A stretch of 64,000 nt of DNA from assembly GCA_018340805.1 (NCBI GenBank), contig JACMZG010001914.1:24839981-24903980 (forward strand), in the 5' to 3' direction. The DNA comes from Microvelia longipes. Taxonomy: Eukaryota; Arthropoda; Insecta; Hemiptera; Veliidae. This document shows positions 3,451 to 57,739 of this stretch, in pieces (the stretch's first letter is position 1; every line of letters starts with the position of its first letter). Below the pieces are notes generated by a model. The model saw only the letters and a list, made by a program, of their open reading frames with translations. It was not told where the DNA came from and did not search any database. A program made the translations under genes and the position numbers.

Positions 3451-4600
3451 TAAAGTAAAGGCGCGGGCCACGAATAACGTAAGTGACTAGAAACGGATTG
3501 CTCGGTTCTTAAAGACAGACGTCTCCGTCTCCTAGTAGCACTGCGGAACTTTGACTTTCAGGTCAGGGCTAAAGAATGACACACGTGCATACTGACGTCG
3601 GGGTTGCTAGAGCTCTCAGTTGGATGGTGCTAGATTAGCTTGAGTGGTGACTCCTTCTAGAGTCTGGGGATGCTAGAGGAGCTGATGAGATTGGTGAGAC
3701 TGGTTAAAGGCCAAGTGAGATTAATGTGATCATAGAACCTATTTAGACTAGATGAACTAAGCTCACTGGAACTAATCATGGACACTAGCCAGAGCGGTGA
3801 GTTTGGATAGTCTAGTTGGGCTAGATGAACTAGGCACACCATGAACTAGTATTATTTACAAAGCAGGATCAAATACAGGCTTAGGATACATAAAACATAA
3901 TTATCAATATCTTTAGGCGAGGGCCACGAAGTGTATCGTGTCCAATCTGTTTGTGAACGTCCTCTAAGTCTAGTTACATTACAAGTAGTGCGTATAGTTA
4001 GAAAAATCGTACATTAGATTTGATAAATTGTTTAATCTACAGTATGTATGATACAGGAAGCCAATCGGAATCGATCCCCCTCCCCCACTTCCATCATCCT
4101 ACCAACCTCATAAGCGTAATTTTCATGATAAAAATTCGCTAAAGAAACTTCAATGTCAATTTATCAATTTTGATAGAACGGATATACGATTTCCAGGTCT
4201 TATTAGTTTGTCATTATTTAGATCTATATGATTCATACTTTTTCAAGTATGTCTCTAGTGTCATAGAATCACACATTAGCAAGTCTAAATATATCTACGT
4301 TTATGGAGTCACACCTTGTTTATACAAAGCAGTTATTCCTGTTATCAGTAGAATGATAAGATATTTTCCCCTAAAGTATGTATGGTTAATGTTTTCGCTT
4401 TTTAATAACCTTAACCTAATATGGGGACATTACTTTCAGCTAACTTTACTTAATTTGTTTTTTTCATTCATTTTCGGCCTACATATTTTTTTCACTTATT
4501 TGTCTATTGATACCTTCTCTTGACCTAAGAATCCATATACATACAGTTACACTTTATAAAAATTTGATCATAAAATTAAAACAACAAATTTAAAATACTA
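3451..4600. other. Intergenic, no convincing gene
   Basis: Short imperfect repeats of CTAGATGAACTA and neighbouring words lie at about 3635-3850. A 117-codon plus-strand frame at 4170-4523 is rich in Phe, Leu, Ile and Tyr as expected from AT-rich DNA. It has no splice, signal-peptide or family support, so it is not annotated as a gene. Confidence 0.5.
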
Positions 4601-5472: not shown

Positions 5473-7032
5473 ATTTATATAATAGAGATTACTTCGATAA
5501 TTGCGATTACTTGTACAACAACCAAATTTTACCATACCCTTTATTTTGTCTTATTTTATAAAGTATGAGAGGAGAACGTCCTAAGTACCAACAAATAGAA
5601 TCACTGTTATTAATATTTGGACCTCAATTTTTTCCGCCTTCTTACTAACAACATGAAATAGATGTTTATATTTACCAATAGAAATTCGGTCCATATTTTC
5701 TTGACTCACTCACGTACTTACAAAGATCTCATAAGCTCATTCTTTGTTTTAAATTCCGTAAGAGAATATTAAAACTGATAGCTGTTTAAAGGAACAATGA
5801 ACTCTGTCTTTACTCAAAAACATTAATTCATTCAAGCGCTTTCAACCTAACATAAGGCCATATAATTATTAATTATAATAGTATTTAGGTTAATTATTTA
5901 ATGTTTTCATATTTTGCCCATTATCTCACGCACAGCTTATGGCAAATCATTCTGCGTGTCCCTTTATTAAACCATTTATGTTTATATATTTGAAACTTTA
6001 TGCAGAGTTGTATATAAAGTGAACACAAGATACAACATACAGAATTGTGTCAACTCTATATTTATTCTTATGCTCGTCTTCTTTGACATCGAGTTACTCA
6101 TGTTTATTAGTAACCTAGGTACTCATACTCTTTGGTATGTAGTAAGGATAAGCAGAATGTTGTGGAATATCCCAAATGTTGTGGAAGTTTCCTCAAAATA
6201 AAGGGTACGGGGTACCTCAAACATTTATCCGAGGTACCCCTTACCCGTTTATTAAATTAGAGGTTTTACAATGAATTCTGGACGTCCACTTATTGCAACT
6301 CTCTAGTACAAATTTCAATTTTTAATGCGCTACAAATAGCTTTCGGACAGCCTGCAATGCTTCTATATGTTCGTCTGGGCTATATTTCTTTTCAGACCCC
6401 CGGCAAGAACGAAGAAAACTAGGTTATTCCTCACGTAAAATGAATGTCGAAAGCTTTTCATAATAAGTGATATATTTAGTAATAATTAATTTTACTTAAT
6501 TTTGTTTCAGGTAAGTACAATCTCAATAGATTCAATTTAAAAATTGTGAGTTTGATAATTATTTAATAATTGTGATTTTTATTTAAATGTTATTGTCTGA
6601 AGATGATCTACATGGGTCCAAATATCCCAACATGTTAGAAATTTATAAGGTGATTCAATTCGATGTAAACAAACGAAACGCCTTCGGAGTTTGTAACCTG
6701 ATCTTTCTTATAAATGACGTGTGACGTCATTGCAGGAATCGGTGTAGGTGGTTAACATTGGAAATACGATATTTGTTCCTGTAATGACGTCAATGTATTA
6801 ATTACGTTCCTGTAATTCCAACATAAAAACTCTCCAGTTGAATCTTATCATAAGCTCTACCAGCTTGGTTCATGCGCCTAGTTGAACATTTTTAGCATAT
6901 TGTAAACAAAAGTTATGATGTTCTTCAAATCCCTGAAATGGACGATTAAGTTGAAATCTGTGTTTAGCATTTCTAAGATTAATACAATAATTTTGTAGGT
7001 GAGGATGAATAAACATTTTATTTTTATAAATT
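5473..7032. other. Intergenic, with one strong hairpin
   Basis: No gene recognised. At 6203-6246 GGGTACGGGGTACCTC and GAGGTACCCCTTACCC form an inverted repeat with one mismatch and a 12-base loop. The arms match the terminal GAGGTACCCCGTACC block of family A, so this looks like two family A ends face to face. Confidence 0.55.
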
Positions 7033-7400: not shown

Positions 7401-10400
7401 CTGTAAAAACAACAAATAAAATAATGGTAATGGTTATGATAGTCTTTATGTAAAGATTTTTATGTAGTAGTGCTTACTCCTTTGGCATCTTTCTTGAATT
7501 TTTAAGAGATTACGGTATAGAATGTTAGGGATGAACTCGGTGCCGGCCTCTTGCAGCAGCTCTGAAACTATCCTCCTTAATGTAACATTTTTTCCCACTC
7601 TCTTTAATTATTAGTTTGAAATTTTCTCGTTCTGTTCTTAATTACTATTTTAACGACTCCGACTCCAGTATCTTTTTGAGGTTGGTCATTTATAATGTAA
7701 ATGTTTGAATAAATCAGCGTTGTGCCAAAGGAAGTTTGCGAATAACAAGATGACATTTTTCTAGTTAATGTAGTGAAACGTTTAAATTACATATACTAGC
7801 GCTCCTGTTAAATGGCTAAGGAACCAAAATTTTCTTGTCCGAAGTAATAAATCCAAGGAACAACATTCTTTTATTTGTAGTAACCTTATATATATTATTA
7901 TTCTAAGGTAGTAACTTAAATAAATATACCATGTTATCAATAACAAATAACCTTTTATTTACTTTTCCTCATTTATACTGTATAAATATAGGATAGGAAA
8001 AGTATTGTGTTTGCATTAAAATCGGAACCGGGATTTAACCTAAATTATTCGTTTCAGGCGCTTTAGGACCTCCTAAGTGAGATTAACCAAGTTGTCTGTC
8101 TCTATGTGTGTGTTCGTGTTTCTGTTACCTTCGCAGCTTCCAGTGTGTTAGTGTTAGAGAATTCAAAGTTTGCACAAAACCAATTTTTAGATCTTGTCGT
8201 ACTTTCCGAAAATAATTTTTATAAGCTGTCAATAACCTCCATTAATATTTAGATTTAGTCGTAAACTAATTTCTGTAAGCTGTCTATAGACAGCTTACAA
8301 AAATTGTTTTCGGATAGTACGACAAAATCTAAAAATTAATGGAGGTTATAACCTCCATTAATTTTTAGATCTTGTCGTACTTTCTGAAAACAATTTTTGT
8401 AAGCTGTCAATAACCTCCATTAATTTCAAAAATTCATAAAACTTGGGAAAATGCCTAGGATAATTTGAAATTTGATTTTACTTAATTTAAGATAAAATCG
8501 TCGAAAAATAATCTAATATTAACGTGAAAATGGAATTATTATGGAAAATCAAAAAATAATGCTACCAATGTACAGTTATCATTGTGTTATCCTACCCTAA
8601 TGACCCCTCTAGTAGTATAAGTCTTTTTGGGGGAACCACATTGTTAAACCCTAGTAAATAGTTCACTTATTTGGAATTCATCTGTCGACGGAGCAAGCGA
8701 AACAGGTACTGTCCTGATCGGGATTTGAACCCCGGTCAGAATAGGGGTTGCTGTTTTCAGAGAAGTAATAAGCGAAGCACCTTAAACCCCTACGCTATTT
8801 TGAGCCTTTAATGCCGAAATACTAATGAAAGTAGTCCAAGAAAATTTTCTGAAAATATACTATTAATTATGAAGGAAAAGAAAGCATAGTCTGCCTATCC
8901 AGAGTGGAGTCCTACTTATGAATGTGCTCGCTTAAAATATTAGAATTCGCACAAGTTTCAGTTTTCTTGTACTAAGTGGTTCCCTGTAGGTTCTCTTCAT
9001 GTGTGCAAAACATGAGAGAATTTTTTTGAAGCTGATAACATTTCCTATAAAACAAGCGTTTTTTCGTCAAAATTGGATAAATACAACAAAAGTTGGGACA
9101 TTTGTTAAATTCACATAAAGCCAATATTTTTACATTAAAATTCACTGACTTTGCATAAATTAACTATTTTTTAGTGTTTTTGAAAGAGCCATAACAGTGT
9201 TGCAGTTATCCGATTTAGATGATTTCTCTTTTTATAGAAAAGTTTGACCTTTAAAATATGTTCTCTTCATGTTTTGCACAGATCCACGGAAAACCACTTA
9301 TTTCAAGAACACTAAACTTTGTGCGACTTTATAAAATTTTGAGCATGCGCAATCATATGAAGGGCTCCACTCTGGATAGGCAGACTATGTTTTTTCTTTA
9401 CAATTTAAGTTATATTTTCAGAAATATTTGGTTTGAAGTAGTACAAAATGAGTCACATTTTTTCAGGTCCGGCTCTTGGACTATAAAATAAACACTTACG
9501 AGATTGATGCCGATAATTCACAAACGAAAAATTATAATAGCTTCAAATTGAAGAAATACCTTTATTGTAGAAGGAAACTCTAGGCTTATGTCCTCTTTCA
9601 TATGTTGATATGTTGATACCTTTCTTTCCTTGTGACTCAGCAAAATCGAACCAAACTACACAATAATAAATGAAACATTAAATACAATAATAGCAAACCT
9701 TATACTGACTGCATTGAAAACCAAATTCAATCCTAAGAATATAGAAACCAATACTTATTACTATTATATGACGATATAACTATAGGATGAAAATTTTAAC
9801 CAAGCTATTATAAGGCACATATTTGCCTCCGTAGCCGGCACCGAAGTCCAGTCTAACCAATCCCACTATCCCACTATGCTCTCAGTTTTTATGAATAGAA
9901 TTTGTTGTAAAAAGATTTCGCCAACTTAAGCTTTGCTTTGAGCATAGTAGATGTGACCCACCAAAGGTGGTTCCCGCAGGGCGAATACCCTGAAGGACCG
10001 AAAGGCCCCAAAACGGGCATTATTATATTATAAGGCACACATACAGTTATGTTTAAAACCTTAAGAAACTATTATTTTTAACAACCATCTACAATGTACG
10101 ACTGTGTCAAACTATAGCTTGGCCAATATCACTTTCAACTGATTGTTTCTCAAATACTACCATATTCATATGGTAGTAGTAATAGTAATTGGGGTTGAGG
10201 TGAGGATAACCTAATAATTAGGCCGCGCAGTTAGGTCATTCTAGCTAACTCTCTTAGAAGAAGATGTTCTACCTTGAAAGGTAAAAGATTTTGTTCTACA
10301 AAGAAAGAAAATGTTCGTCTTATCTTTGAAAAAGCCGTCACTTAACAATAAGCTTTCCACAAAGAAACTTAGCTATTAGAGGGAGACTATTGTAGTCTGA

Positions 10401-18515: not shown

Positions 18516-19863
18516 ATGTTGAATACCTTTCAGATGACGAGAAAGGGGAAACGGCGTAGATCCACTACGTCTCCTCCTAAAACTATAAAGAAGCCTAACA
18601 TTGAATCTTCTGAAAAACGAAGAAATTCAATGCCATCTATGCAATCTAGCGGAATTTCCCAGAACAACTCTCCAAGCGAAGTCTCGTCCCCTGGCAGACC
18701 CGCGATGTTTCAAATAATCAAGGAGCAACTTTTGAAACGCCAAATAGTTTTGCAGTGTTAGCAAATGCAAATCAAGACAATCTCGATACCGAGCAGCAAA
18801 GTGGAGGACAATCACATCTAAAACCACCACCAATTTACGTACATGGCGTAACTAATTTTTCTAATCTAGTGGAAAAATTAAAAACTGTTCTCGGCAACGA
18901 TGAATTCACGTGCAAAGCCCGCACCAGTGACGTGGCAATTCAGTGTAAAACCCCCGAAGGTTATAGAGACCTTGTTCACGCTTTTAGGGCTGATAATGTG
19001 TCCTTCCATACTTATCAACCTAAAGAAGACAAACCATATAGAGTAGTTCTTCGCCACCTTCACCCCTCTACTCCTGTAGAGGCCATCAAATCTGAACTTG
19101 AACAACGCGGTTTTCAAGTAAGGAACATTGTCAACGTTAAAAAGGGTGAAGCAGCCCTTGCTTTATTTTTTGTTGACCTGGAACCTAATCCCTCAAATAA
19201 AGAGATTTTTAACGTCTCCACAATTTACCACTGCAAGGTTAAGGTAGAAGAGCCCTACAAACGCATATCAGTGGTACAGTGTACACGCTGTCAAAGTCTA
19301 GGTCATACTAAAAAATACTGTAACTTGAGCCCACGGTGCGTTAAGTGTGCAGAAAATCATTTTACACAAGAGTGTACAAAAACCGTGGATCAAGAGCCTA
19401 AATGTGCTTTGTGTAATGGTACCCACCCTGCCAGTTATCGAGGATGTACTGTACACAGAGAGCTTCAGAAAAAGTTGCGCAAACCTGAGGCACAACCACA
19501 GCTTACAGTACCACCAACTGTAAACCAAACACCTCTGCCACAGCTTGTACCTGCTACTCCAGCCACTCGACCTCATCAAAGCTACTCACAAGCAGCATCG
19601 CTAAGCCAGAACAACCAGCTGTAGAGCCTCCACCATTTTTCAACCCGCCTGCAATTAGTTATGCCTCTGCCACCTCGGGCACTCCTCTCCCAAAAAGACC
19701 CCGTTTACCTGCTTATATTCCACCAACTACCGGAACTGATATCTCTTTTTACTTTCAGTCCTTCCTAACTGAACTCCGCCAAATGCTTGAACCGCTTTTT
19801 ACAGCCTTAACAAGTCTCACAACTGCTTTAAGTTCAGCTCTTCCCGCCAGGGCGACGCCTTGA
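18516..19863 (+). pseudogene. Jockey-like LINE ORF1 (Gag-like, zinc knuckle), frameshifted
   Basis: Nucleic-acid-binding protein of a non-LTR retrotransposon. It starts in the frame of 18516 with the basic stretch MTRKGKRRRS. The reading moves to the frame of 18755 near 18700 (a one-base shift; SNNQGATFETPNSFAV is in the second frame) and shifts again near 19600. The second shift continues as EPPPFFNPPAISYASATS to the TGA at 19861-19863. Three CCHC-type knuckles stand in a row: CTRCQSLGHTKKYC, CVKCAENHFTQEC and CALCNGTHPASYRGC. The last, with its HPASYRGC signature, is typical of jockey and related clades. Two shifts make it non-functional, though otherwise the protein is well preserved. Confidence 0.85.
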
Positions 19864-22301
19864 CCTCTCCAACGTCCTGTTCTCTTATCATCCTTCTTTG
19901 GAACGCCAACGGTGCGACCCGACACCGGCAGGAACTAGACCTTATACTTCAGGACAGAAGGATCGACATTGCCCTCATCACAGAGACACATTTCACTTCA
20001 CGATCACATTTTAACATTGCTAATTACACAACATACAGAACAGATCACCCTGATGACACTGCACACGGGGGTAGTGCGATCCTAATACGTAATTCCCTTT
20101 CTCACTATACTATTCCTTCAACCTGCTCGGAAGCTATTCAGTGCACATCTATTTCTCTTAATCTCTCTCCTTTTAATTACACTATATCCTCTGTTTATTG
20201 TCCTCCTAGTCAGAGAGTTTCCAATCAAGATTTCCTGTCCTTATTCCAATCCTTGGGTCCTAAATTCATCGCTGGTGGGGATTATAATGCAAAGCACCGA
20301 ATGTTTGGATGTCGAGCTAGTAATCCTCGAGGCATCGTTCTACATGACGTAATTTCCTCCTCAAATTTCCAAATCCATTCTCCTAATGAGTACACGTACT
20401 TTCCCACAGATCAGAACCGTCTACCAGATCTTTTAGACTATTTTGTTTCATCTCCTATAACGCATCTCCACCCATCATCCTTAGTCCTTAACGATTTATC
20501 CTCTGATCACTCTCCAGTTCTCCTTACTCTAGATATTACTCCTCCCACGGTACCTCCAAAACCAAAACTAATAAACGGACGCATAAACTGGGACAACTTT
20601 CAGACCTTACTTGATCAGAGACTTGACTTAACTTTACCACTGAAAACAGCAATAGATATAGATAATGCAGTACAACTACTTACTCACTCCATACAGACAT
20701 CAATATAGGACTCAACTATTGACCTAGACTCAAAGCGATCCTACAAACTGACGACACTACCTAACGAAATACGCACTCTTATTACCGACAAAAGACGAGC
20801 TAGAGCACAGTGGAAAAGGACAAGATACCCCTCAGACAAAAGGATATTAAATACAATTAGCAGGACACTAACTAAACTAATAAGACAACATAATGACGCT
20901 AAATTCGAGAATTACACCGAACAACTGACAGACAGAGACAGATCTCTATGGAATGCAAGTCGACGGCTCCTATCTCACAAATTCACTCCCTCTCCTTTAA
21001 AAAGACCTGATGATACTTGGGCGAAGTCGGAAGCTGATAAAGTTGAAGTTTTTGCCCAGCATCTCAGTAATCTTTTCTCTCCCCATCCCGATATCCTAGA
21101 CCAAGACCACGAACATAAAATCAATAACGACCTTCTTATCCCCCTGCAAATGTCTCCTCCACCTAAAGCCTTTAACCCCTCTGATATTCAGCACACAATT
21201 AAACACCTCAAATCCCGAAAATCTCCTGGCTATGACCTAAATACACCTGAAATCCTAAAGCGCCTTCCGAAGAAGGGTATTCTTTTCCTTACCTACATAT
21301 GCAACGCTGTCCTTCGAACAACCCACTTCCCAACCCAATGGAAATTTGCTACTATTATCATGATTCCAAAACCCTCCAAACCAACTCATCTCCCTTCGTC
21401 CTACCGACCTATCAGTCTTCTTCCTGTCATGGGGAAAATCCTTGAAAAACTCCTCCTTCGCCGACTCCTTCCTTACCTTAAAGACAAAATTCCAAACCAC
21501 CAATTTGGTTTCCGCTCCCAGCATTCCACTGTCCAACAATGTCATCGGGTAGTCGATGTCATTGCCTCCAGCCTTGAGTCGAAAAAGTATTGTTCGGTGG
21601 TATTTCTTGATGAGGCACAAGCCTTTGATAGAGTATGGCATGCCGGACTGCTTTGGAAACTCAAGAAAATCCTTCCTTTTACCTATTATCTTGTCCTCAA
21701 ATCATTTCTCACTGATAGATTCTTCCAAGTTAGTTTAGGCTACTCACTCTCCTTAATCTATCCTGTAGGGGCTGGCGTCCCGCAAGGTAGTATCCTAGGT
21801 CCCATTCTTTACTCCTTCTATACTCATGATATTCCAGAACACCCGTCCACAATCCTTGGAACCTTTGCAGATGACAAGGCCATCCTATCTGTCCACAATA
21901 GCCATATAACCGCTTCCGACAATACCCAGAACCATCTTACCCTTCTTGAACCCTGGTTGAGGAAATGGAGGATAAAGATAAACGAACAGAAAAGTATTCA
22001 TGTCACTTTCGCTCTTCGTATAGACACTTGTCCTCCAGTCACCCTTAACCAAGTTCACATACCTCAATCCTCCAGTGTCCGATACCTGGGCCTTAACCTT
22101 GACAGACGTTTAAATTGGCAACATCACACTAAAACAAAACGGACTGACGTATCACGACGTTTCAAGTTCCTGTCACGTCTTTTAGATCGTAGGTCCAAAT
22201 TAACATTGAGCAACAAACTTAGGATCTATAACGTCATATTAAAACCATCATGGGCCTATGGTCTGGAAGTGTGGGGTTGCACCAAGCGTTCTAAAATCTG
22301 A
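19860..22301 (+). pseudogene. Jockey-like LINE ORF2 (endonuclease plus reverse transcriptase), one nonsense codon
   Basis: Starts at TTG within TTGA, overlapping the ORF1 stop, where jockey-type elements usually have ATGA. An apurinic-type endonuclease comes first: LLWNANGATRHRQEL, ALITETHF, GGDYNAKH and SDHSPV carry the expected N, E, D/N and SDH residues. An in-frame TAG at 20706-20708 follows QTSI, and the same frame then continues to the TGA at 22299. The RT domain has YRPISLLPVMGKILEKLL, NHQFGFRSQHSTVQQ, VVFLDEAQAFDRVW, GVPQGSILGPILY and the catalytic box FADD. The C-terminus breaks down after YGLEVWGC, with degraded sequence to about 22430. It would replicate by target-primed reverse transcription. 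It is nearly complete but dead. Confidence 0.9.
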
Positions 22302-25403: not shown

Positions 25404-26863
25404 TCAAATGTTTTTCAAAAATTTTTTTAGTAATAATATTGTACTCAAAAGTATTAAAGTTGTATTACTAACTGTTCTTTCACAGTAACTACTAGATATG
25501 TTTTTATCTTTGCCTAATAGGTTTGAGATATTGTTCGCTTCCTGTATTAGGTTCGAATTTTTAGAACTGAATCGATTTGGGTAATAATAATTTATTGTAT
25601 TATAATTTTTCAGTGGATTCTTATCGTTAGTGGATTTGTTATAGCTTAGAGTTTTAGAATCATTTGGTAATGAGAAATTTAAAGTATTATTTTTATTTAC
25701 ATTTGAATTATCTTGTAGTCTGTTTGTATTATTTAAGTATACATTATTAGACCGAGGAATAATTATATTTTGATTGCTCACATTCTTTAAATTTGTTCCA
25801 TTCTGATGTTTTAAATGGTGAGAATCAGGCTTACCACTAGTACTATTAAAATTTGTATTTTGATTATAATTATATTCATTATTGTTATATTTTCCTCCAG
25901 AATCTTTATTCCTGTTTGAATTCGTATTGTTTTTATCATTAATATTAGTTTTGTCTCCTATAATGTTATAATTATTCTTATTATTTGTATAATTTAAATA
26001 AGTTTCGTTTTTGGAATATTTTTTCTCCTTATTAATGATGTTAATATTTGGGATTCCTGGTGAAGGAGTATATTTATTTATTTTATCTTTGGAACTATTA
26101 TTTTGATTATTACTATGGTTTCTAAAATTTAATCCTTTATGATTTGTTTTATTCTTATTTGCATCAATGTATTCGTATTCTACCATAGTATCAATGTATT
26201 CGTCGTATGTATTCGTTTGTATTACATTATTATAATTATTCTCATCATTATTTATAGTTCTATTTACTTTTGTTTTATTATTTGTTGTATTACTATCTCT
26301 AGTCTGTATACTTTGCTTGCTATTATTTTGATATGCTTCTCTAGTAGTCTTGCTGGTTTCGTTATTTATTCCGTTAATTCCATATTTATTCGCATTTATT
26401 CCTTTATCGTGACTTTTAATTTCATTATTTTGTGAATCGAATTCATTTTTACACTCATAAGATTCTAATTTGTCAGAATTATTTATTTTTTGGAAATACG
26501 TATAGTTATCGATTATTCTTTCTCCGGATAAATTGATTTGATGTATAATTATCAATATATTTTGTCTTATTACTTTATTCGTGTTCATTTCATGTTGTAT
26601 GGTATTATTTTTTGTAGTGTTAGTTTCGCTTTGTGTTTTGTTATTGTTATCAAATAAATTTAAGTTAATATTATGTTTAATATTGGTATTATTCTTATAA
26701 ATTCTGGCTTGATTTAGTTCACTTCTTCCAAAATTTAAATTATCATTAGAGGTATTGAAAATATTTGTTTGATCTTTCCAATTAATATGTCTCACGTGTT
26801 TTCTTGTTTCGGTCCGGTCGTATGATGATGATACTGCTCCTTTCATGTTAGAGTTGCTCCATG
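25404..26863 (-). CDS. Gene 2, exon 2 (Asn-rich body, stop)
   Basis: Reads from the acceptor as two bases, then WSNSN before the internal Met at 26846. That Met is not the start, because the frame is open to the splice site and a signal-peptide exon lies upstream in matching phase. Confidence 0.75.
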
Positions 26864-27774: not shown

Positions 27775-28428
27775 TTAAATATTATGTCATTAATTGACAT
27801 AATGTAAAAGATAACGTTTTTCACTAATAAATTTGAAAATTCGCTTACATCAAGGCAATATACCATTTAAATGAACCGAACAAATAAAGTAAATTGACGA
27901 ACTGATGAAGTATAACAATTATGTTGCTGCGAAGCGGCCCCCAGCACCGACGCAGCGGAGCGGCAATGAAGCCGAAGACCTTTTGTTTCATATAATAAGA
28001 TGATCCTTGATTTTTCCTTTACACAGTATTTTCAGCTTTAACTATATGTTGAACATTAGCCGTATTGTTTTTTAGATTAATTGAAATTTACCCAGTATAA
28101 TCGTGCGTGAGACACCTTGGAAATATACATATAATACAATGCTACATCTGGGAACTGTTTCATCATTCGATATTCGTCATCATTGATGGCTCGACATAAT
28201 GTCATGTTTTGCAAAACTCGGTTGTATCAAATTATATATTTAATTGAAATTACTAATACCTTGGATAGTAGAACTTTCAATTTTAAATCCTGAGCTCTTT
28301 TTAAAAACATTATCCGATTTATGTTTAGGCGCTTTCAAATTATTATTTATTTTTCTAGGGTCTGCTGCGATGACAAAACTAAGTAGAAGTACGAGCATTA
28401 ACAATTTCAGTGTTATTTTTCCTCCCAT
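25404..28428 (-). CDS. Gene 2: secreted, extremely Asn-rich protein
   Basis: Two coding exons, 28428-28260 and 26863-25404. The donor is CCAAG|GTATTAGTA and the acceptor TTATTTTACAG|CATGG. The intron is phase 1, and the joined codon (G plus CA, Ala) gives [17 protein letters not shown]. The start ATG is one base after the acceptor TTGTTTTTTCAG, so an upstream untranslated exon exists. The product is about 542 residues. [21 protein letters not shown] is a signal peptide. A Lys-rich stretch follows, then about 440 residues dominated by Asn with many N-X-S/T sequons and no cysteine until SSSYCERTV near the end. The C-terminus [17 protein letters not shown] is hydrophobic with two lysine pairs, so membrane insertion or GPI processing is possible but uncertain. 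Family not recognised. Same strand, signal peptide, Asn bias and phase-1 intron as gene 1. Confidence 0.72.
26864..27230. other. Intron of gene 2, proximal part
   Basis: AT-rich. It includes a short direct repeat, AAGGTCCACTCAAATTTTTC, at about 27161 and 27189. No coding signal. Confidence 0.45.
27231..27640 (+). repeat. Family E repeat (GC-hairpin block), copy 1
   Basis: Opens with GGCCGCTTCGCGGCATTGGC and GTGGCCTTTTCGCGATCACA, then a TGGTTGTTGTCCTGTATCAG block, and near the end GGGTTAATGACGTCAGACAT and TTTCATAAACAAAAGGGTTC. The same order occurs at 40741-41000, and the first part at 54165-54260. Confidence 0.75.
27649..27771. repeat. AT microsatellite with GTGTGTGT core
   Basis: Two (AT)n blocks separated by AAGTGTGTGTGTATACAT. 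Confidence 0.95.
27800..27995 (-). repeat. Family E repeat, inverted copy 2
   Basis: The minus strand reads CCGAAGCGG-type hairpins (GCTGCGAAGCGGCCCC on plus near 27926) and then AATTGTTATACTTCATCAGT. Together with 27231-27640 it forms an inverted pair around the AT array. Confidence 0.6.
28085..28215 (+). repeat. One arm of the hammerhead-bearing inverted-repeat element
   Basis: ACATCTGGGAACTGTTTCAT, CATTCGATATTCGTC and GATGGCTCGACATAATGTC match the arm at 57418-57482. The central ribozyme-like part and the other arm are absent. Confidence 0.65.
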
Positions 28429-41419: not shown

Positions 41420-41710
41420 GCTAAGGTTTACTGAAATCAGGTAAAAAGCCCTTCAGAACTTCTCACAATTTCGGACTTGCTTTGCTCGTTCACGGAATAT
41501 CATGACTACCCCAACGTTGGATTATTTCAGTCTTATAATACGCTCGATCTCAGTATTAAAATATCAATCTAAAGTTTATGTTGTTATAACTTTGTGTTCG
41601 CTTCGCTCGTTCCAAAATGTCATAATTACTTGAAGCTTACGGCTATTACTTCGATCTTGCTACGTTCGACGTCTCAATTATATTGTGTTAAGTGAATGAT
41701 TAAATATGTG
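41420..41710 (-). repeat. Family A tail, reversed and diverged
   Basis: CGGACTTGCTTTGCTCGTTC and GTGTTCGCTTCGCTCGTTCC blocks, each followed by CATGACTACC / CATAATTACTTG, are characteristic of the reversed tail. Confidence 0.6.
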
Positions 41711-42600
41711 CGAGCACAAAGTACAAACACACTAACATTTATCTGTAGCTTATTGCCTAGTATGTGAGGTATCAACAAACATAACTAAATTAAAAAAAAA
41801 CCGTGTTAAAAACCTAATTTTTAAGACAGCGCAAGTTTAATTTAAACCAGGATCTTGGATGATTGAGGAATACGAAAAAACGTCTTCCTTTTAATTTCAC
41901 ATGAGATTTTACAATGTAAGCTACATAAATGAGATCTATAATTATAAAGAACTTCATTTCACTTATGGTTTATAATTAAGATGTTAATTTTTGTTACTTC
42001 TGGCTTTGATGATGATAGGAAAAAGGAAGGTAAAGAAACGAGAACATTGACCTAGTCCGAACATCACTGTATGATTGAAAAACGAAAATCTATTGATAAG
42101 TGGGACTTCTTAATCTATTTTACTGAATAGATAATATTTACTTTATAATTTATATTAAAAATATTAAACTCCTTCTCTTAAATGTTTTAGTTTAATTTTC
42201 TCCTACTATGTCTTGTTCTATACTGCCAAAGTAGTAATGTATGTATCAACCACTTTTATTTTATTAGGAGACATATATAACTGCACGATTTTAAGTTTGA
42301 GAGCGAGATGACACCGTTACAATGGCTTTACATATCTGGTGTAAAGCAGCTTTACACATCTGGTGTAAAGCTGCTTTCGGTTTATTGGCATTAAATGATA
42401 TCGTGATTAATAAAAGAATCTAAATGGTTTACTTTCACTAAAATCGTATGTTTTTCATTTAATGGATTGATTATGATAATCTTATATTTGTATAATTCGT
42501 AAACTCTGCTTATTACCCATTATAGTCTAAACCTTAGTTATATTTGAAAAGTGATGTGTTGTGAGAGCAATTCATGTTTTGCAAAGTATATAGTTATGGG
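41711..42600. other. Intergenic, nothing coding
   Basis: A short direct repeat TTACATATCTGGTGTAAAGC / TTACACATCTGGTGTAAAGC with self-pairing GCAGCTTTAC lies at about 42326-42375. No gene recognised. Confidence 0.45.
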
Positions 42601-42830
42601 TGTTTCGCTAGCCAAGCATTATGTCTGTTTAAGAGTGAGTTCAGGCTCTGTCGGCGCCCTGATGAGTTAGACGTAACGAAACAGAGTGGGACATGACAAT
42701 ATGTCGAGCCATTAATGATGACGAATGACAAATGATGGAACAGTTCCCAGATGTAGCATCGCGATTAGCTTGTTTCATTTCCTAGGTGTCTCTCGCACAA
42801 TTAGATTGTGTCAACTTTGTAACAAATGCT
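42600..42830 (+). mobile_element. Hammerhead-bearing inverted-repeat element, copy 1
   Basis: The right arm (42688-42827) carries CATGACAATATGTCGAGCCA, GGAACAGTTCCCAGATGTAG and GTCTCTCGCACAATTAGATT. All are shared with both arms of 57400-57645 and with 28085-28215. The left arm is mostly replaced. The ribozyme-like core sits at the turn. Confidence 0.7.
42646..42686 (+). ncRNA. Candidate hammerhead ribozyme
   Basis: Stem III is CTCTGT (42646-42651) paired with ACAGAG (42681-42686). The cleavage triplet is GTC with C at 42652. Stem I is GGCGCC (42653-42658). The core CTGATGA (42659-42665) is followed by stem II GTTA/TAAC with loop GACG, whose first pair is the favoured G-C, then GAAA (42678-42681). 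All invariant hammerhead bases are present. The weak point is stem I: six self-complementary bases leave no loop, so cleavage in cis is unlikely. Two copies pairing through GGCGCC could form a dimeric hammerhead. Activity is inferred from sequence only. Confidence 0.6.
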
Positions 42831-42959
42831 TTGAAAAAAATAAGTAGTGTCAAATGTTATTAAGGATTGTATTAGTGGTGTACAGAGACATAAATTGTCT
42901 TATGGTCGTGGCTTTGCCTCCTTAACTTATGTGATTGCTCCTAATGGAAAGGAATATGT

Positions 42960-43440
42960 TTGAAGAGTAATAACAAACTTCCGTTATTAGTAATAAACAA
43001 GGTCTTATAAATATGTTGTAATAAACATGTTTGTTATGACTTATTAACGATCTTTTATTGTTCTATCAGCATGTTTGTTATGACTTATTAACATGTTCGT
43101 TATTAGTAATAAACAAGATCTTTTAAATATGTTCTAATAAACATGTGTGTTCTGACTTATTAACATGTTCGTTATTAGTAATAAACAAGTTCATATAAGT
43201 ATGGTGTGATTAACATATTCGATGTTACTAATAAACAAGATCTTTTAAATATGTTCTAATAAACATGTTTGTTATGACTTATTAACATGTTCGTTATTAG
43301 TGATAAACAAGTTCTTTTAAATATGTTCTAATAAGTTTGTTTAAACAATTATTAACATGTTCGTTATTAGTAATAAACAAGTTCCTTTAAATATGTTCTA
43401 TAAGTTCTTTATTACTAATAAACATGTTTGAATGTATATA
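42960..43440. repeat. Tandem repeat, period about 72 bp
   Basis: About six units of TTAACATGTTCGTTATTAGT plus AATAAACAAGTTCTTTTAAA plus TATGTTCTAATAAACATG. Confidence 0.9.
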
Positions 43441-43484
43441 AAATAATCTACAAACATGATATATTTTTCTAATATAGGTGAGAC

Positions 43485-45300
43485 TTTGGCCTCTCAGATA
43501 CCTGACTCCCAACTTCCCCCGTATTGCTTTGATGATAGTTCATGTGATTCTAACTTCACATTCAACAAATCAGTGAAACACAGTATCTATCATCGGTACT
43601 TTGAAAGGTGGATCTGGTCCGGGCTTTGACGGTCTCCGTTCTAGTACTATCAAGGATATTAAAAGCTTTATATTGTTGCCCTTAACTTACTTGATAAATC
43701 TTAGTCTACGTTCAGGTCAATTTCCTAATATTTATAAAACAACTATCATTTCCGATATTTAAAGCTGGGAATAAACAACTAAGCAACTATAGACCATTTC
43801 ATTAACATCCAACATAGCTAACATTTTGAAAAAGTGGTTAAGGGCAACTTAGAATCAAATAATTTAATTTCGATAAACCAGTTTGGTTTTCGTGAGGGCC
43901 TTGGAACGGAGGACGCCATTGCCAGGCTCACTCAAATAATTTATGAGAAACTTGACAAGTCTAAAAAGTGTTTAGTTATATTTCTGATATGACTAAGGCT
44001 TTTGACAGAATTTCCTTAGTTAGACTTGGTTTTAAAAATGAAACTCTGTCTTGGTTCTCTTCTTATCTTAAAAATCGGAAACAACAAGTTAAAATATATA
44101 GTAACTTAAGTGAAGCCCTAACTTTCAAGTATGGAGTGCCCCAAGGCACTGTAATTGGTCCAATACTGTTTTACTGTATGTAATTGCTTGACTTTATATC
44201 ATATCCGATGACATGTCTTTGTTTTAGAGGGGGATAGTTTGAGGTGTCCGAGAGGTCAATATCTGTTTTCATATAAATAACTGGCTCGACTTTATTATCA
44301 TTAAATAAAAAGAAATCATTTTATGTACCTTTTGCCATTAAAGAATCACTTCCATTCCAATCATGTAATCAAAAATTCCATAGCACCTCTATACATCATG
44401 ATTGTAAAAACTGTTATGTATTGGAGACAAGAGAGTTGCTTCTTACCTGGGAGTCACTATTGACCACTCTTTGAAAATGGATATAACCACATTATCAGTG
44501 CGTTGTAAACTAAGGAAATTTATTTTTATATTTTTAATTTAAGAAGGTTTTAAATCAGAGTATGCTGAGGTCTTTATTTGCATTGGTTCAATCAAAATTA
44601 CAGTATGGGCATTGTTGGTTGGGGAGGGGCGAATATCACTCATCTCCAACCATTAATTAATACACAGAAAAGAATTATAAAAATATTTAAATTATTCCTC
44701 CATACTCTCATTTAAGAATCTAAATTTGCAAATCAAAGAGCTGCCACTTTTGTTTGTTTTTAAACTTTAAGCCAAAAAGAACTTACGGGCCATGATACAA
44801 GAACAATTCAAGAGAAAAATTTGTTATCCCTAATTTTTCAACTAGTTTTTGGCCAGAAGTGCTATTGTATATCAGAATCCCTCTGAATTCAGATCAAAAC
44901 CTGAACTACTAGGTTTTTGCTTTGAAAATGCATTATTATAATAATTTATAACACATTATCTTACTTCTAGTTACTTATTTTCGCTGCTTTATTTCCATAT
45001 ATACCTATAGTAAACATAACACAAATCATTCTTCTAAAAGACTCGTATCTCTACTTAAATATTTATACATTTCTTTTTACTTATTCCTTGACCACTATTA
45101 CAATTTTACTGGCACTTATAATACTTTACTTATTAAAATTTATTTTTATTTATCACCTTTATTTTATATTTTTTTATTTAGTTTTGAACAAGGATAATTT
45201 CTTTTTTATACTTATAAAATTAAATAAATGTTCTTAAACTCTGTTCCCAAGCTCCAGCTTGCTGTTTTGGGGGAGTATTGATCTTACACCTGTATGTACT
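43485..45300 (+). pseudogene. Second LINE relic: reverse transcriptase, many breaks
   Basis: Reads in alternating frames as a non-LTR RT: SGPGFDGLRSSTIKDIK, AGNKQLSNYRP, NQFGFREGLGTEDAIARLTQ, MTKAFDRI and FKYGVPQGTVIGPILF, which gives the only sizeable open frame (43968-44183). Further on come LTYLGVTIDHSLKMD (after a shift) and VQSKLQYG, typical of the RT C-terminal part. The active-site box is ruined. The clade differs from the jockey-like copy at 18.5 kb; I cannot say more. The 3' part to about 45300 is inferred. Confidence 0.75.
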
Positions 45301-46477
45301 ACTTTGTTGTTTACTTTGAATTTGAATTTGATTGTTTTCCATAATTTATTCACAATAGTGAAAACGAGAGACCAATTAATTTATTTCAAACTTATACAAG
45401 GAATAAATTTAATTTTTAGTAACCGCTTCTTAAGTAGTCTTCTTAATAACGTCAGTTACTGTTAAACCCAGAACGTCAGCAGTTAAAAATTAGGGGAAAA
45501 TTGGGGGGGCAATACCAGAGGGGGGCACTTTTAGGGACTTCCGTGAAACGACTCGTCAGAGAGGCGACATTTCTTCGACGGTTAGTTCTCCCCTATCTTC
45601 GAGCCTGGATGAACTGATCAATTATACTGATTTACTTAGTGTTTTGAGGTATTTTATCTCTACTGGAGTCTATATTATTCAGCAGAATAATTTGAAAGAA
45701 TGCACCTTTCAAATAAAGTTGAGCACTTTCTTATTCTTTATTATATGCAAAGTCATTTGAATGAATTCAGGTAGTTAAGATATAAAAGTCGGGCACCCAC
45801 AATACATTCTTCTTAATAAAGTTTAGAAAATTTTTATAAAAAGGGCTTTTTTTAAAATCTTGTATTGGCTCTCTTCCTGGTTACTTTTAAACTAAACTAA
45901 TAGACACTTTAGGCCTCCTACTTCATTAGTATTTGTAGGAAATAAAATATCAACTTGGATCCTCAAAATGGATCTATATTAAATGTGCTAGATTTTAGGT
46001 ATTATTTAAAATGACTTTAATTTAGCCTATATGTTATGTAATACGAACTAAGTAATGTTATAATTTTATAGTTGATATTTATTAAAAAAGGTTTATTTAC
46101 AACTAAAAATGCCTCACGATTTAGAAACCAATCCTTATAATTGTTTTGCAAATTAGTAGTATGCAAGGGGTAGTTTGCATATAGTAGTACTGAAGTAGTA
46201 ATGCAAATTGCCAGGTAGTATGTCCAGGTAGAGGGTAAGTTAGCATTGTACTGATAGTAGTGTAAAGTAGTAGTGATTAGAGTAATAACACTCGGTACGG
46301 TAGTTGCATTACTACTTAATGCAACTATCCAGGGGTGTTGCAGTATGCAGTAATAATCCGAATATATTACATTCGCAAAGGAGGGACTTATTTTAACCTA
46401 TTTATTTGATTGCTTGTATTCTTATAATGTACTCATTATTTTTGTGTTAAATGAAATCATTTATTTTCTTTCTTATA
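45301..46477. other. Intergenic, nothing coding
   Basis: Holds GGGGGGGCAATACC and CCGTGAAACGACTCGTCAGA near 45500-45560, and a TAGTAGT-rich simple stretch at about 46155-46330. Confidence 0.4.
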
Positions 46478-47183
46478 GTCCAAGAGCCGAACCTGAAAAT
46501 ATGACTCATTTTTTACTTACAATTTTCTGAAAATATACCTTAAATTATGAAGAAAAAACACAGTCTGTCTATCCAGAGTGGAGCCCTTCATATGATTGCG
46601 CATGCTCAAAATTTTATATAATCGCACAAATTTCAGTTTTCTTGAAATAAGTGAGATTCCCTGTGGGTCGTGTGCAAAACATGAAGAGAACATTTTTTAA
46701 AGCTGATAAAATACGACTTTTGTAAAAAGAGTGTTCAATCATCAAAATCGGATAAATACAAACCAAGTTATAGCTCTTTCAAAAGCATCAAAACATTTAT
46801 CAAATTTATGCAAAGTCAGCGAATTTCTTTGAAAAAATATTAACTTGTTGGGCATTTTTTTGGCCATTTAACAAACGTCATAACTTTAGTAGTAGTTATG
46901 CGATTTTGACGAAAAAACACTTGTTTTATAGCACATTTTATCAGCTTTGAAAATTGTTCTCTTCATGTTTTGCACACGACCTACAGGGACCACTTAATGC
47001 AAGAAAACTGGAATTTGTGCGATTTTATAATATTTTGAGTGAGCCCATTCATATGAAGGGCTCCACTCTGGATAAGCAGACTATGCTTTTACTTCATAAT
47101 TTCAGATATATTTTCAGAAATATTTGGTTTGAAGTAGTACAAAATGAGTCAAATTTTTTAGGCCTGGCTCATGGACTAATAAC
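46478..47183. mobile_element. Long terminal-inverted-repeat element, copy 2
   Basis: The ends TAGTCCAAGAGCCGAACCTG and GGCCTGGCTCATGGACTA are imperfect inverses. The arms run inward for over 200 bp through CAGTCTGTCTATCCAGAGTG and its inverse CACTCTGGATAAGCAGACT, up to facing TGTGCAAAACATGAAGAGAA / TTCTCTTCATGTTTTGCACA words. The flanks suggest a TA duplication. There is no transposase; a non-autonomous element, same family as 8833-9488. Confidence 0.85.
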
Positions 47184-47790: not shown

Positions 47791-48454
47791 GTATGTATGT
47801 AATAGTTTCACCCACATATGTATGTGTGTGTATTAATGGAATTGGTCAGACTGTTGGTGTCGTAGAGCCAATGTGTGGTTTTATGTTTTAGCATGATAGA
47901 GTAATAAAATAAAACTTATGCTTTTTGTTATCTATCAAAGGAAAGAAAATATTTTAGGAAAATATGACGAAAGAAAGGAATAAAACGAACGAGAAATGGC
48001 GATATAGCTGACACGGTGGAACTAATTTAGTTGTACCATAACTCCCGGGTGGTGAACAGAACTTGTCAAATATGACGAATAATGTAGATATAGATAGAGG
48101 TTTATGTCTAGCCGTAAATGTTGTTAACGAAGAATTCGTTTGTTTCTATTTTGACGTTTTAAAGAGTTATAAAACGTTGAACAATAAAGTTAAATTGACT
48201 CTTTTATCCACCTCTGTGTCTGTCTAGTCCGGGGGGTTTGTTGGTGAATTTTCAAAAAAAGTTAAGGAGCTAAATAACAATTGTACAACTGTCCTTTCTG
48301 ACAAAATAACGCCGGTATGTTAAGAGAAATGTGGATATGGCTCTATCAGCACCCTGATGAGTTAGTCAAGTACTATGAAAATGAATAATCCTGGTACCGT
48401 TGATGACCAAAAGTCAGATCTTACTTCAAAAGAATAAGATAGCATTAATAGAAG
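47791..48454. other. Intergenic, with a decayed hammerhead-like core
   Basis: At 48341-48383 CTCTATCAGCACCCTGATGA then GTTAG aligns with 42646-42670, but stem III no longer pairs and stem II is altered. No gene recognised elsewhere. Confidence 0.5.
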
Positions 48455-57170: not shown

Positions 57171-57399
57171 CGGAGGACCATAAAAGTGACCATAAAAAAA
57201 GAACGGGTGACCATAAAAAATTTATATTGGTCATTTTTTACTCACCATAGATATGGGTATCAATAGCAAAATAATTATCAAAATCTATTTTTTTAGAGCA
57301 CCCAAGTCTGGGACACTTGATATGGATTGACCCAGCTATGAAAAGAATATTATTTGGACCAGAACCTACTCAGGATTAGAGTTAAAGAACTAGGAAATG
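57171..57399. other. Intergenic, nothing recognised
   Basis: Short repeat GACCATAAAA near 57176 and 57209. Nothing else. Confidence 0.4.
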
Positions 57400-57645
57400 T
57401 AACAAGGAAATGCAATGTTAGATCTGGGAACTGTTTCATCATTCGACATTCTTCATTATCATTGATGGCTCGACATAATATCATATCTCACTTTGTTTCA
57501 TTATGTCTAACTCATTAGGGCGCCACAAAGCCTGAACATCATTCATGTCGAGTCATCAATGATGAATGTCGAATAATGGAACAGTTCCCAGATGTAACAT
57601 TGCATTTGCTTGGTACATATCCTAGGAATCTCTCGCACAATTATA
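57400..57645 (-). mobile_element. Hammerhead-bearing inverted-repeat element, copy 2
   Basis: Two arms of about 85 bp pair almost throughout: ACATCTGGGAACTGTT / AACAGTTCCCAGAT and CATTGATGGCTCGACATAAT / GTCGAGTCATCAATGATG. The turn is the ribozyme-like core on the minus strand. The outer right end reads CTCTCGCACAATTATATTGT, shared with 42805. Confidence 0.8.
57491..57530 (-). ncRNA. Decayed hammerhead core with compensated stem III
   Basis: The minus strand has CTTTGT, GGCGCC, CTAATGA, GTTA-GACA-TAAT, GAAA and ACAAAG. Compared with 42646-42686, stem III changed on both sides (C to T and G to A) and still pairs. Stem II closes with a G-T wobble. The essential G of CTGATGA is A, and the base at the cleavage site is missing, so this copy should be inactive. 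Confidence 0.55.
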
Positions 57646-57739
57646 TTGTGTCAACGTTTTCTTCTATTACTAAATTGTTCTTGGTTTGTTTATTGTTCAG
57701 TAGTATCAAATGATATAACTCTGTCATGCTCTATGCATG

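Follow-up and report, generated by a model that had tools for sequence, protein, structure and literature searches.

A 64-kb stretch of the Microvelia longipes genome (contig JACMZG010001914.1, positions 24,839,981 to 24,903,980 of the forward strand; hereafter the window) contains a motif that an earlier note, made from the letters alone, described as a complete hammerhead ribozyme core at the turn of an inverted-repeat element. The locus raises two questions: what kind of element carries the motif, and what machinery has moved it? We have searched the 664.6-Mb assembly containing the window for copies of the element and analysed their arrangement, their variability and the ends of their insertions.

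The hammerhead motif and its 315-bp unit

The core is complete, with all parts at the positions given in the earlier note and in a type III layout (Table 1). With cmscan run under loose filters on a 601-nt stretch, RF00008 (Hammerhead_3, the type III model of Rfam) was matched with 37.0 bits (E-value 2.3e-6), the alignment spanning the whole model with a stem I loop of zero length. In a standard scan nothing in the 64-kb window reached the Rfam gathering score (48.5 for RF00008); the Infernal comparison suggested in the note has given a type III match, though one under the gathering cut-off. Since the commonest hammerhead of the family is a sequence scoring under this cut-off, routine annotation would miss the family. 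Of the features of the type III class, the invariant core, A15.1-U16.1, stems II and III and the open stem III are present at 42646-42686; stem I, being a GGCGCC without a loop, does not close in cis.

Table 1. Parts of the hammerhead and copies of the repeat unit in the window
Feature	Position	Strand	Evidence or remark
Type III hammerhead, complete motif	42646..42686	+	sequence; RF00008, 37.0 bits; 2,916 exact genomic copies
Stem III of hammerhead, 6 bp	CTCTGT 42646-42651 / ACAGAG 42681-42686	+	
C17, predicted cleavage site	42652	+	
Stem I, GGCGCC	42653-42658	+	self-complementary, loopless
Core CTGATGA	42659-42665	+	
Stem II, GTTA/GACG/TAAC	42666-42677	+	
GAAA	42678-42681	+	
Copy A, partial direct tandem of the 315-nt unit	42559..42860	+	alignment to the unit of locus L046
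Head-to-head copy (28.1 kb)	28087..28239 (about; BLAST minus match 28084-28207)	.	unit mapping, BLAST
Head-to-head copy (57.5 kb)	57390..57655 (about; BLAST plus match 57545-57658)	.	BLAST, unit mapping
Relic of hammerhead core, 27 nt, 24/27 identical	48339..48365	+	BLAST E 2e-4 against window

The motif is part of a large family. The 41-nt hammerhead was found at 6,423 genomic places with at most three mismatches, 2,916 of them exact, and a 41-nt stretch from the body of the unit at 3,484 exact places; the reversed controls gave 0 in both searches. The unit is ~315 bp long, non-coding, present in many copies and arranged head-to-tail with one hammerhead each (spacing of 314-316 bp in L046); an element of such short units with a hammerhead, found head-to-tail, is therefore retrozyme-like. 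At 315 nt the unit is too short to encode a reverse transcriptase and a GIY-YIG nuclease, and the longest frames across arrays of units have 111-115 aa (L035, L042). Exact-pattern searches found no relatives in viral or prokaryotic sequence collections; the phage collection gave one match only, at chance level (E 8), and a generic hammerhead core pattern had one match elsewhere. Judged by its sequence, the motif is a convincing hammerhead ribozyme within a 315-base mobile repeat.

A DNA search with 42639-42818 returned at least 43 matches at 94-100%, the window included, 40 of 2,337 candidates having been scored. The 30 loci analysed are the best matches to copy A, the 42.6-kb copy of the window; with overlapping loci still counted, 92 of their 117 hammerheads are identical to copy A over 56 nt. 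The earlier note had asked for the genomic copies and named a lack of conservation of CTGATGA, GAAA and GTC among them as counter-evidence; this outcome was not seen. For each of two patterns we also listed 100 exact places, with no ranking by likeness to copy A. In these lists the spacing between same-strand neighbours is close to a whole multiple of 315.5 bp, and neighbours on opposite strands always come minus first and then plus, hence head-to-head (9/9 and 11/11, the two lists sharing loci).

Counting unit positions from the predicted cleavage site (position 1), copy A consists of unit 154-227, a gap and about 295-315 followed by 1-203, ending at the ~204 start site described below. The flank upstream of its motif (42559-42623) aligns directly with unit 154-227, a match that 0 of 1000 letter shuffles equalled in score, and of the 102 inverted pairs in 41600-43600 none of the 25 longest spans 42646-42686 as a turn. 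Of the turn postulated in the note, inversion has stood as a frequent feature of the family, but the 42.6-kb copy itself is a partial direct tandem. The idea that stem III continues into an extended hairpin holds for the inverted 57.5-kb copy alone.

The two other copies in the window are head-to-head. At 28.1 kb the minus arm (28087-28207) has its outer end at unit 162 and the plus arm (28202-28239) at unit 205, with a 12-bp exact direct repeat, TTAATTGAAATT, at both ends. At 57.5 kb the minus arm (57390-57537) bears a decayed hammerhead and ends early, at unit 133, while the plus arm (about 57540-57655) has its outer end at unit 163; a direct repeat was looked for at the ends of this copy and none was found. 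The hammerhead lies at the turn here and its core is broken (one C missing, CTAATGA); in stem III a paired C-G to T-A change separates it from copy A, the remaining differences in the motif being non-compensatory.

A sample of 200 kb from the same contig, taken as 20 stretches of 10 kb at even spacing, had hammerhead-bearing copies in L005, L007, L019 and L022 and fragments in L015 and L018. The window and this sample together contain five older hammerheads visible from end to end, those of copy A, the 57.5-kb copy, L005, L007 and L022; only copy A combines an intact core with GGCGCC. The core of L005 is intact with a stem I hexamer GGCCTT; those of the 57.5-kb copy, L007 and L022 are mutated, L022 having the hexamer GGCACT.

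Variability of the hammerhead and the dimer question

Variability was counted with the best-matching unit of each locus left out, as this unit had been selected for likeness to copy A, and with the duplicates L023, L039, L050 and L051 as well as L045 excluded. Substitutions numbered 8 in 3,786 cells of the hammerhead and 193 in 25,474 cells elsewhere in the unit when two subfamily sites (64 and 152) were set to zero; they are thus ~3.6-fold rarer in the hammerhead (Fisher 3e-5, cells within one array being non-independent). When each distinct variant is counted once, there are 7 in the 47 sites of the hammerhead and 121 in the 266 others (p 5e-4). The ten least variable 47-nt segments printed all overlap the hammerhead, which itself ranks 17 of 315. 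Deletions are not rarer there (0.76% versus 0.93% elsewhere). In older copies the contrast in substitutions is small (7.5% versus 10.8%), as one expects of copies that are dead on arrival. Stem I showed one substitution in about 80 young units outside the selection, and a base is deleted in some of them. Separately, unit 164-204 has more deletions in young arrays (2.5%, versus 0.8% in the hammerhead and 0.6% in the body), which a T run may explain.

Our best inference remains that a hammerhead with a loopless GGCGCC would work only as a dimer; the single stem I substitution in young units agrees with this, the stem I deletions and the other hexamers of L005 and L022 less so. The nearest-neighbour model, which ignores the tertiary structure of the core, favours other folds: the monomer hammerhead fold has -6.1 kcal/mol versus -13.3 for the preferred fold, and the double hammerhead -27.7 versus -36.2 kcal/mol for the best dimer; the unit is not unusually structured (z -1.26). 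In the double form stems I and III both lie between the two hammerheads. By analogy with the amphibian dimeric hammerheads (PMC7229834), such a ribozyme may cleave multimers while sparing circles.

One could argue that the hammerhead is an inherited, functionless relic and that copies have spread from tandem transcripts without any cleavage. A six-base loopless stem I, unable to close in cis, is what such a relic might look like; deletions are as common in the hammerhead as elsewhere in the unit, inner ends of insertions do not pile up at the cleavage site (see below), and hammerhead mutants had no effect on insertion by the Anolis Penelope protein in vitro (PMC11167929). Yet the scarcity of substitutions, by either way of counting, and the 2,916 exact copies among 6,423 speak against this, and we regard the relic as an unlikely explanation.

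Insertion ends and the moving machinery

Outer 3' ends of the insertions concentrate at two sites: 46 of 52 lie at unit 150-170 or 196-214, i.e. at ~163 and ~204, ~41 nt apart, these end classes having been defined after the ends had been seen. The remaining six all come from older copies in the window or the 200-kb sample. Among 19 two-ended loci, 16 have one end of each class and three have one class end and an end elsewhere; the same class occurred twice at none of the 19. The duplicates L023, L039, L050 and L051 were excluded from these and from the junction counts, and 38 ends, entered by hand, were used in a Rayleigh test of the outer ends.

The inner ends behave differently. At the 21 head-to-head junctions the 42 inner ends are spread round the unit (Rayleigh p 0.17) with no pile-up at the cleavage site, 1 of 42 being within 5 nt of it versus 1.5 expected. 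Plain tandems also exist among the loci (e.g. L042 and L046), and in the head-to-head loci L035 and L036 both arms are full tandem arrays. A side observation concerns unit 287-309, just upstream of the hammerhead, where 8 of 42 inner ends fall versus about 3 expected (in L024, L026, L031, L038, L043, L048 and the 57.5-kb copy of the window); as a post hoc hint, reverse transcription may pause there.

Of 24 loci compared at their two flanks, 16 lie between exact direct repeats of 11-18 bp; one of the 24 is incomplete on one side, so that a duplication could not show there. Among mismatched flank pairs 0.4% reached 10 bp. The other eight loci, including the 42.6-kb and 57.5-kb copies, have direct repeats of 3-6 bp. 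All these lengths are upper values, because bases shared with the element ends may be included. At L041, where a non-inverted copy breaks off at unit 69, a direct repeat of 12 bp is present too. Both start sites sit 3' of small palindromes, CACAATTAGATTGTG and TATCAAATGATA (unit 140-215), which can be read as putative hairpins.

Head-to-head inversion, a tail on one end and a short target duplication are features of Penelope-type insertions, and all three are found here. Among published Penelope insertions are inverted head-to-head pLTRs with duplications of 8-10 bp, one inverted pLTR carrying a tail of 31 bp at its 3' end (PMC3846280). A purified Penelope-like protein cuts both strands and extends them, starting at two neighbouring internal sites; the interval between these makes the tail (PMC11167929). 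In that Anolis assay start sites were alike on both strands and hammerhead mutants had no effect on insertion in vitro, so that the assay implies neither the one-of-each rule nor a requirement for cleavage (PMC11167929). GIY-YIG domains are frequent in the M. longipes genome, with at least 63 matches over the cut-off, 150 of 843 candidates having been scored; inspection by eye and a rough motif scan recognised no Penelope ORF in the stretches retrieved.

The insertion pattern of the copies points to Penelope-type retrotransposons as the moving machinery. We consider it probable that the element is a retrozyme with a loopless-stem-I type III hammerhead, likely to be active only as a dimer, and that it is inserted from both sides of the target by such machinery. 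The genomic copies document the unit and its number, the tandems, the head-to-head rule, the two end sites, the flanking repeats and the low variability of the hammerhead; from them we infer transcription, dimeric cleavage, RNA circles and Penelope as the enzyme. Tandem copies of this non-autonomous element would be transcribed as multimers, in which two hammerheads would pair in trans via GGCGCC and stem III and cleave after GUC; the ~315-nt RNAs released would be ligated into circles. Since stem I has no loop, a lone circle could not re-cleave itself. A Penelope-type protein (GIY-YIG nuclease and reverse transcriptase) would then make a cut with a ~12-bp stagger in the target, and both DNA ends would prime reverse transcription of circular or multimeric RNA, starting at unit ~163 on one end and at ~204 on the other, each beside its small palindrome. 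Copying beyond one unit length would give tandem units, and two cDNAs meeting head-to-head at variable junctions would give palindromes. That the tandem arrays are long and that ends are missing from the cleavage site suggests a circular or a multimeric template.

Alternatively, the retrozyme-like element could have been moved by a LINE through ordinary target-primed reverse transcription, with inversions arising by twin priming on multimeric RNA. Twin priming also yields copies whose 5' part is inverted and whose 3' part is direct, and LINEs are at hand: window 18650-22298 (+) holds a non-LTR retrotransposon, which we take to be Jockey-like, whose several frames contain PRE_C2HC, endonuclease and reverse transcriptase domains. 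The authors of the retrozyme work left both LINEs and Penelope-like elements possible (PMC7229834). Nevertheless, twin priming gives no reason for two fixed start sites ~41 nt apart, each used once at 16 of 19 two-ended loci; full tandem arrays occur on both arms of L035 and L036, and the combination of features is the one described for Penelope elements (PMC3846280, PMC11167929). On balance we find a LINE quite unlikely to be the mover.

The earlier note had envisaged a palindromic element with the ribozyme at its turn. Frequent head-to-head copies flanked by direct repeats could indeed suggest a DNA transposon of palindromic form, a foldback or MITE, with a ribozyme in it. A fixed palindrome has been rejected, however, as inner junctions occur at positions throughout the unit and plain tandems make up many of the loci; in addition, outer ends at 163 on one side and 204 on the other do not match as terminal repeats, so that fixed terminal inverted repeats are lacking, and the non-inverted, truncated L041 has its 12-bp repeat all the same. 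Such a transposon is highly improbable. Chance resemblance to a hammerhead, to which the score under the Rfam cut-off might be thought to point, was rejected as scarcely credible in view of the E-value of 2.3e-6, the 2 matches of a loose type III descriptor per 800 Mb of simulated sequence (one strand, the window's composition), the 6,423 genomic copies and the low variability of precisely the hammerhead stretch.

Returning to insertion by Penelope-type machinery, the enzyme that mobilises animal retrozymes has been left open in the papers cited here, with Penelope-like elements as a strong candidate whose role was suggested and not shown (PMC7229834, PMC7761336, PMC8969392). The many young copies that keep both insertion ends follow one plain pattern: one end at ~163 and the other at ~204, a head-to-head arrangement and direct repeats of ~12 bp. 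This pattern is directly testable by Penelope biochemistry. A more general model, plausible though tentative, is that animal retrozymes are satellites of Penelope: circular RNA would be primed two-endedly at two fixed sites, one each, rolling copying would produce head-to-head tandem palindromes, and a type III, dimer-only ribozyme, the mirror image of the newt type, would keep the released circles closed.

Known relatives and further features of the window

The element resembles metazoan non-LTR retrozymes, which are short, non-coding, AT-rich tandem units with one hammerhead each and thousands of copies (PMC7229834, PMC7761336). Target duplications of >4 bp and a proposed rolling reverse transcription of RNA circles are shared as well. 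Metazoan retrozymes as described have type I hammerheads, whereas the hammerhead here is type III with a loopless stem I; for them RNA circles have been shown and the enzyme is not established, while for our element circles are predicted, and its paired ends and direct repeats carry a Penelope-like signature (PMC7229834, PMC7761336). Direct tandems, head-to-head inversions, a 30-40 nt tail at one end, short target duplications and an internal start of reverse transcription are known from insertions of Penelope-like elements and their pLTRs (PMC3846280, PMC11167929, PMC8969392). Unlike Penelope-like elements, the unit has 315 nt and no protein-coding capacity was seen in it, and Penelope hammerheads are minimal type I variants (PMC7761336).

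As in the dimeric hammerheads of newt, axolotl and Penelope, a helix is too short to close alone and two ribozymes are expected to act as a pair; the short helix is III in those type I ribozymes but I in the type III ribozyme described here (PMC7229834). Type III motifs in insect genomes have precedents in the termite and toad HDV-like RNAs and in hammerheads of fly genomes; these have an extended, looped helix I and, in termite genomes, are isolated motifs (PMC7936874), whereas the present motif has a loopless helix I and belongs to a tandem mobile repeat. Plant LTR retrozymes likewise combine a type III hammerhead with a non-coding retroelement and direct repeats; they differ in their 4-bp duplications, ~350-bp repeats, ribozymes 600-1000 bp apart and looped helix I (PMC7761336). 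The literature searched, with most subscription papers outside it and hence as weak evidence of absence, contained neither a type III animal retrozyme nor a two-ended head-to-head retrozyme insertion.

Some further features of the window may be recorded. Copy A is adjoined at 42960-43428 by a degenerate array of AACATGTTCGTTATTAGTAATAAACAAG-like repeats in both orientations, and a small palindrome around CTTTACACATCTGGTGTAAAG at 42325-42377 matches a microRNA-precursor model far under its cut-off on both strands. An asparagine-rich open frame of 480 aa without a Pfam match occupies 25404-26846 (-). A long palindrome with imperfect arms (723 aligned bp, 76%) occupies 46476-47178 and, by mapping, has no relation to the 315-nt unit; another such palindrome lies near 8842-9429.
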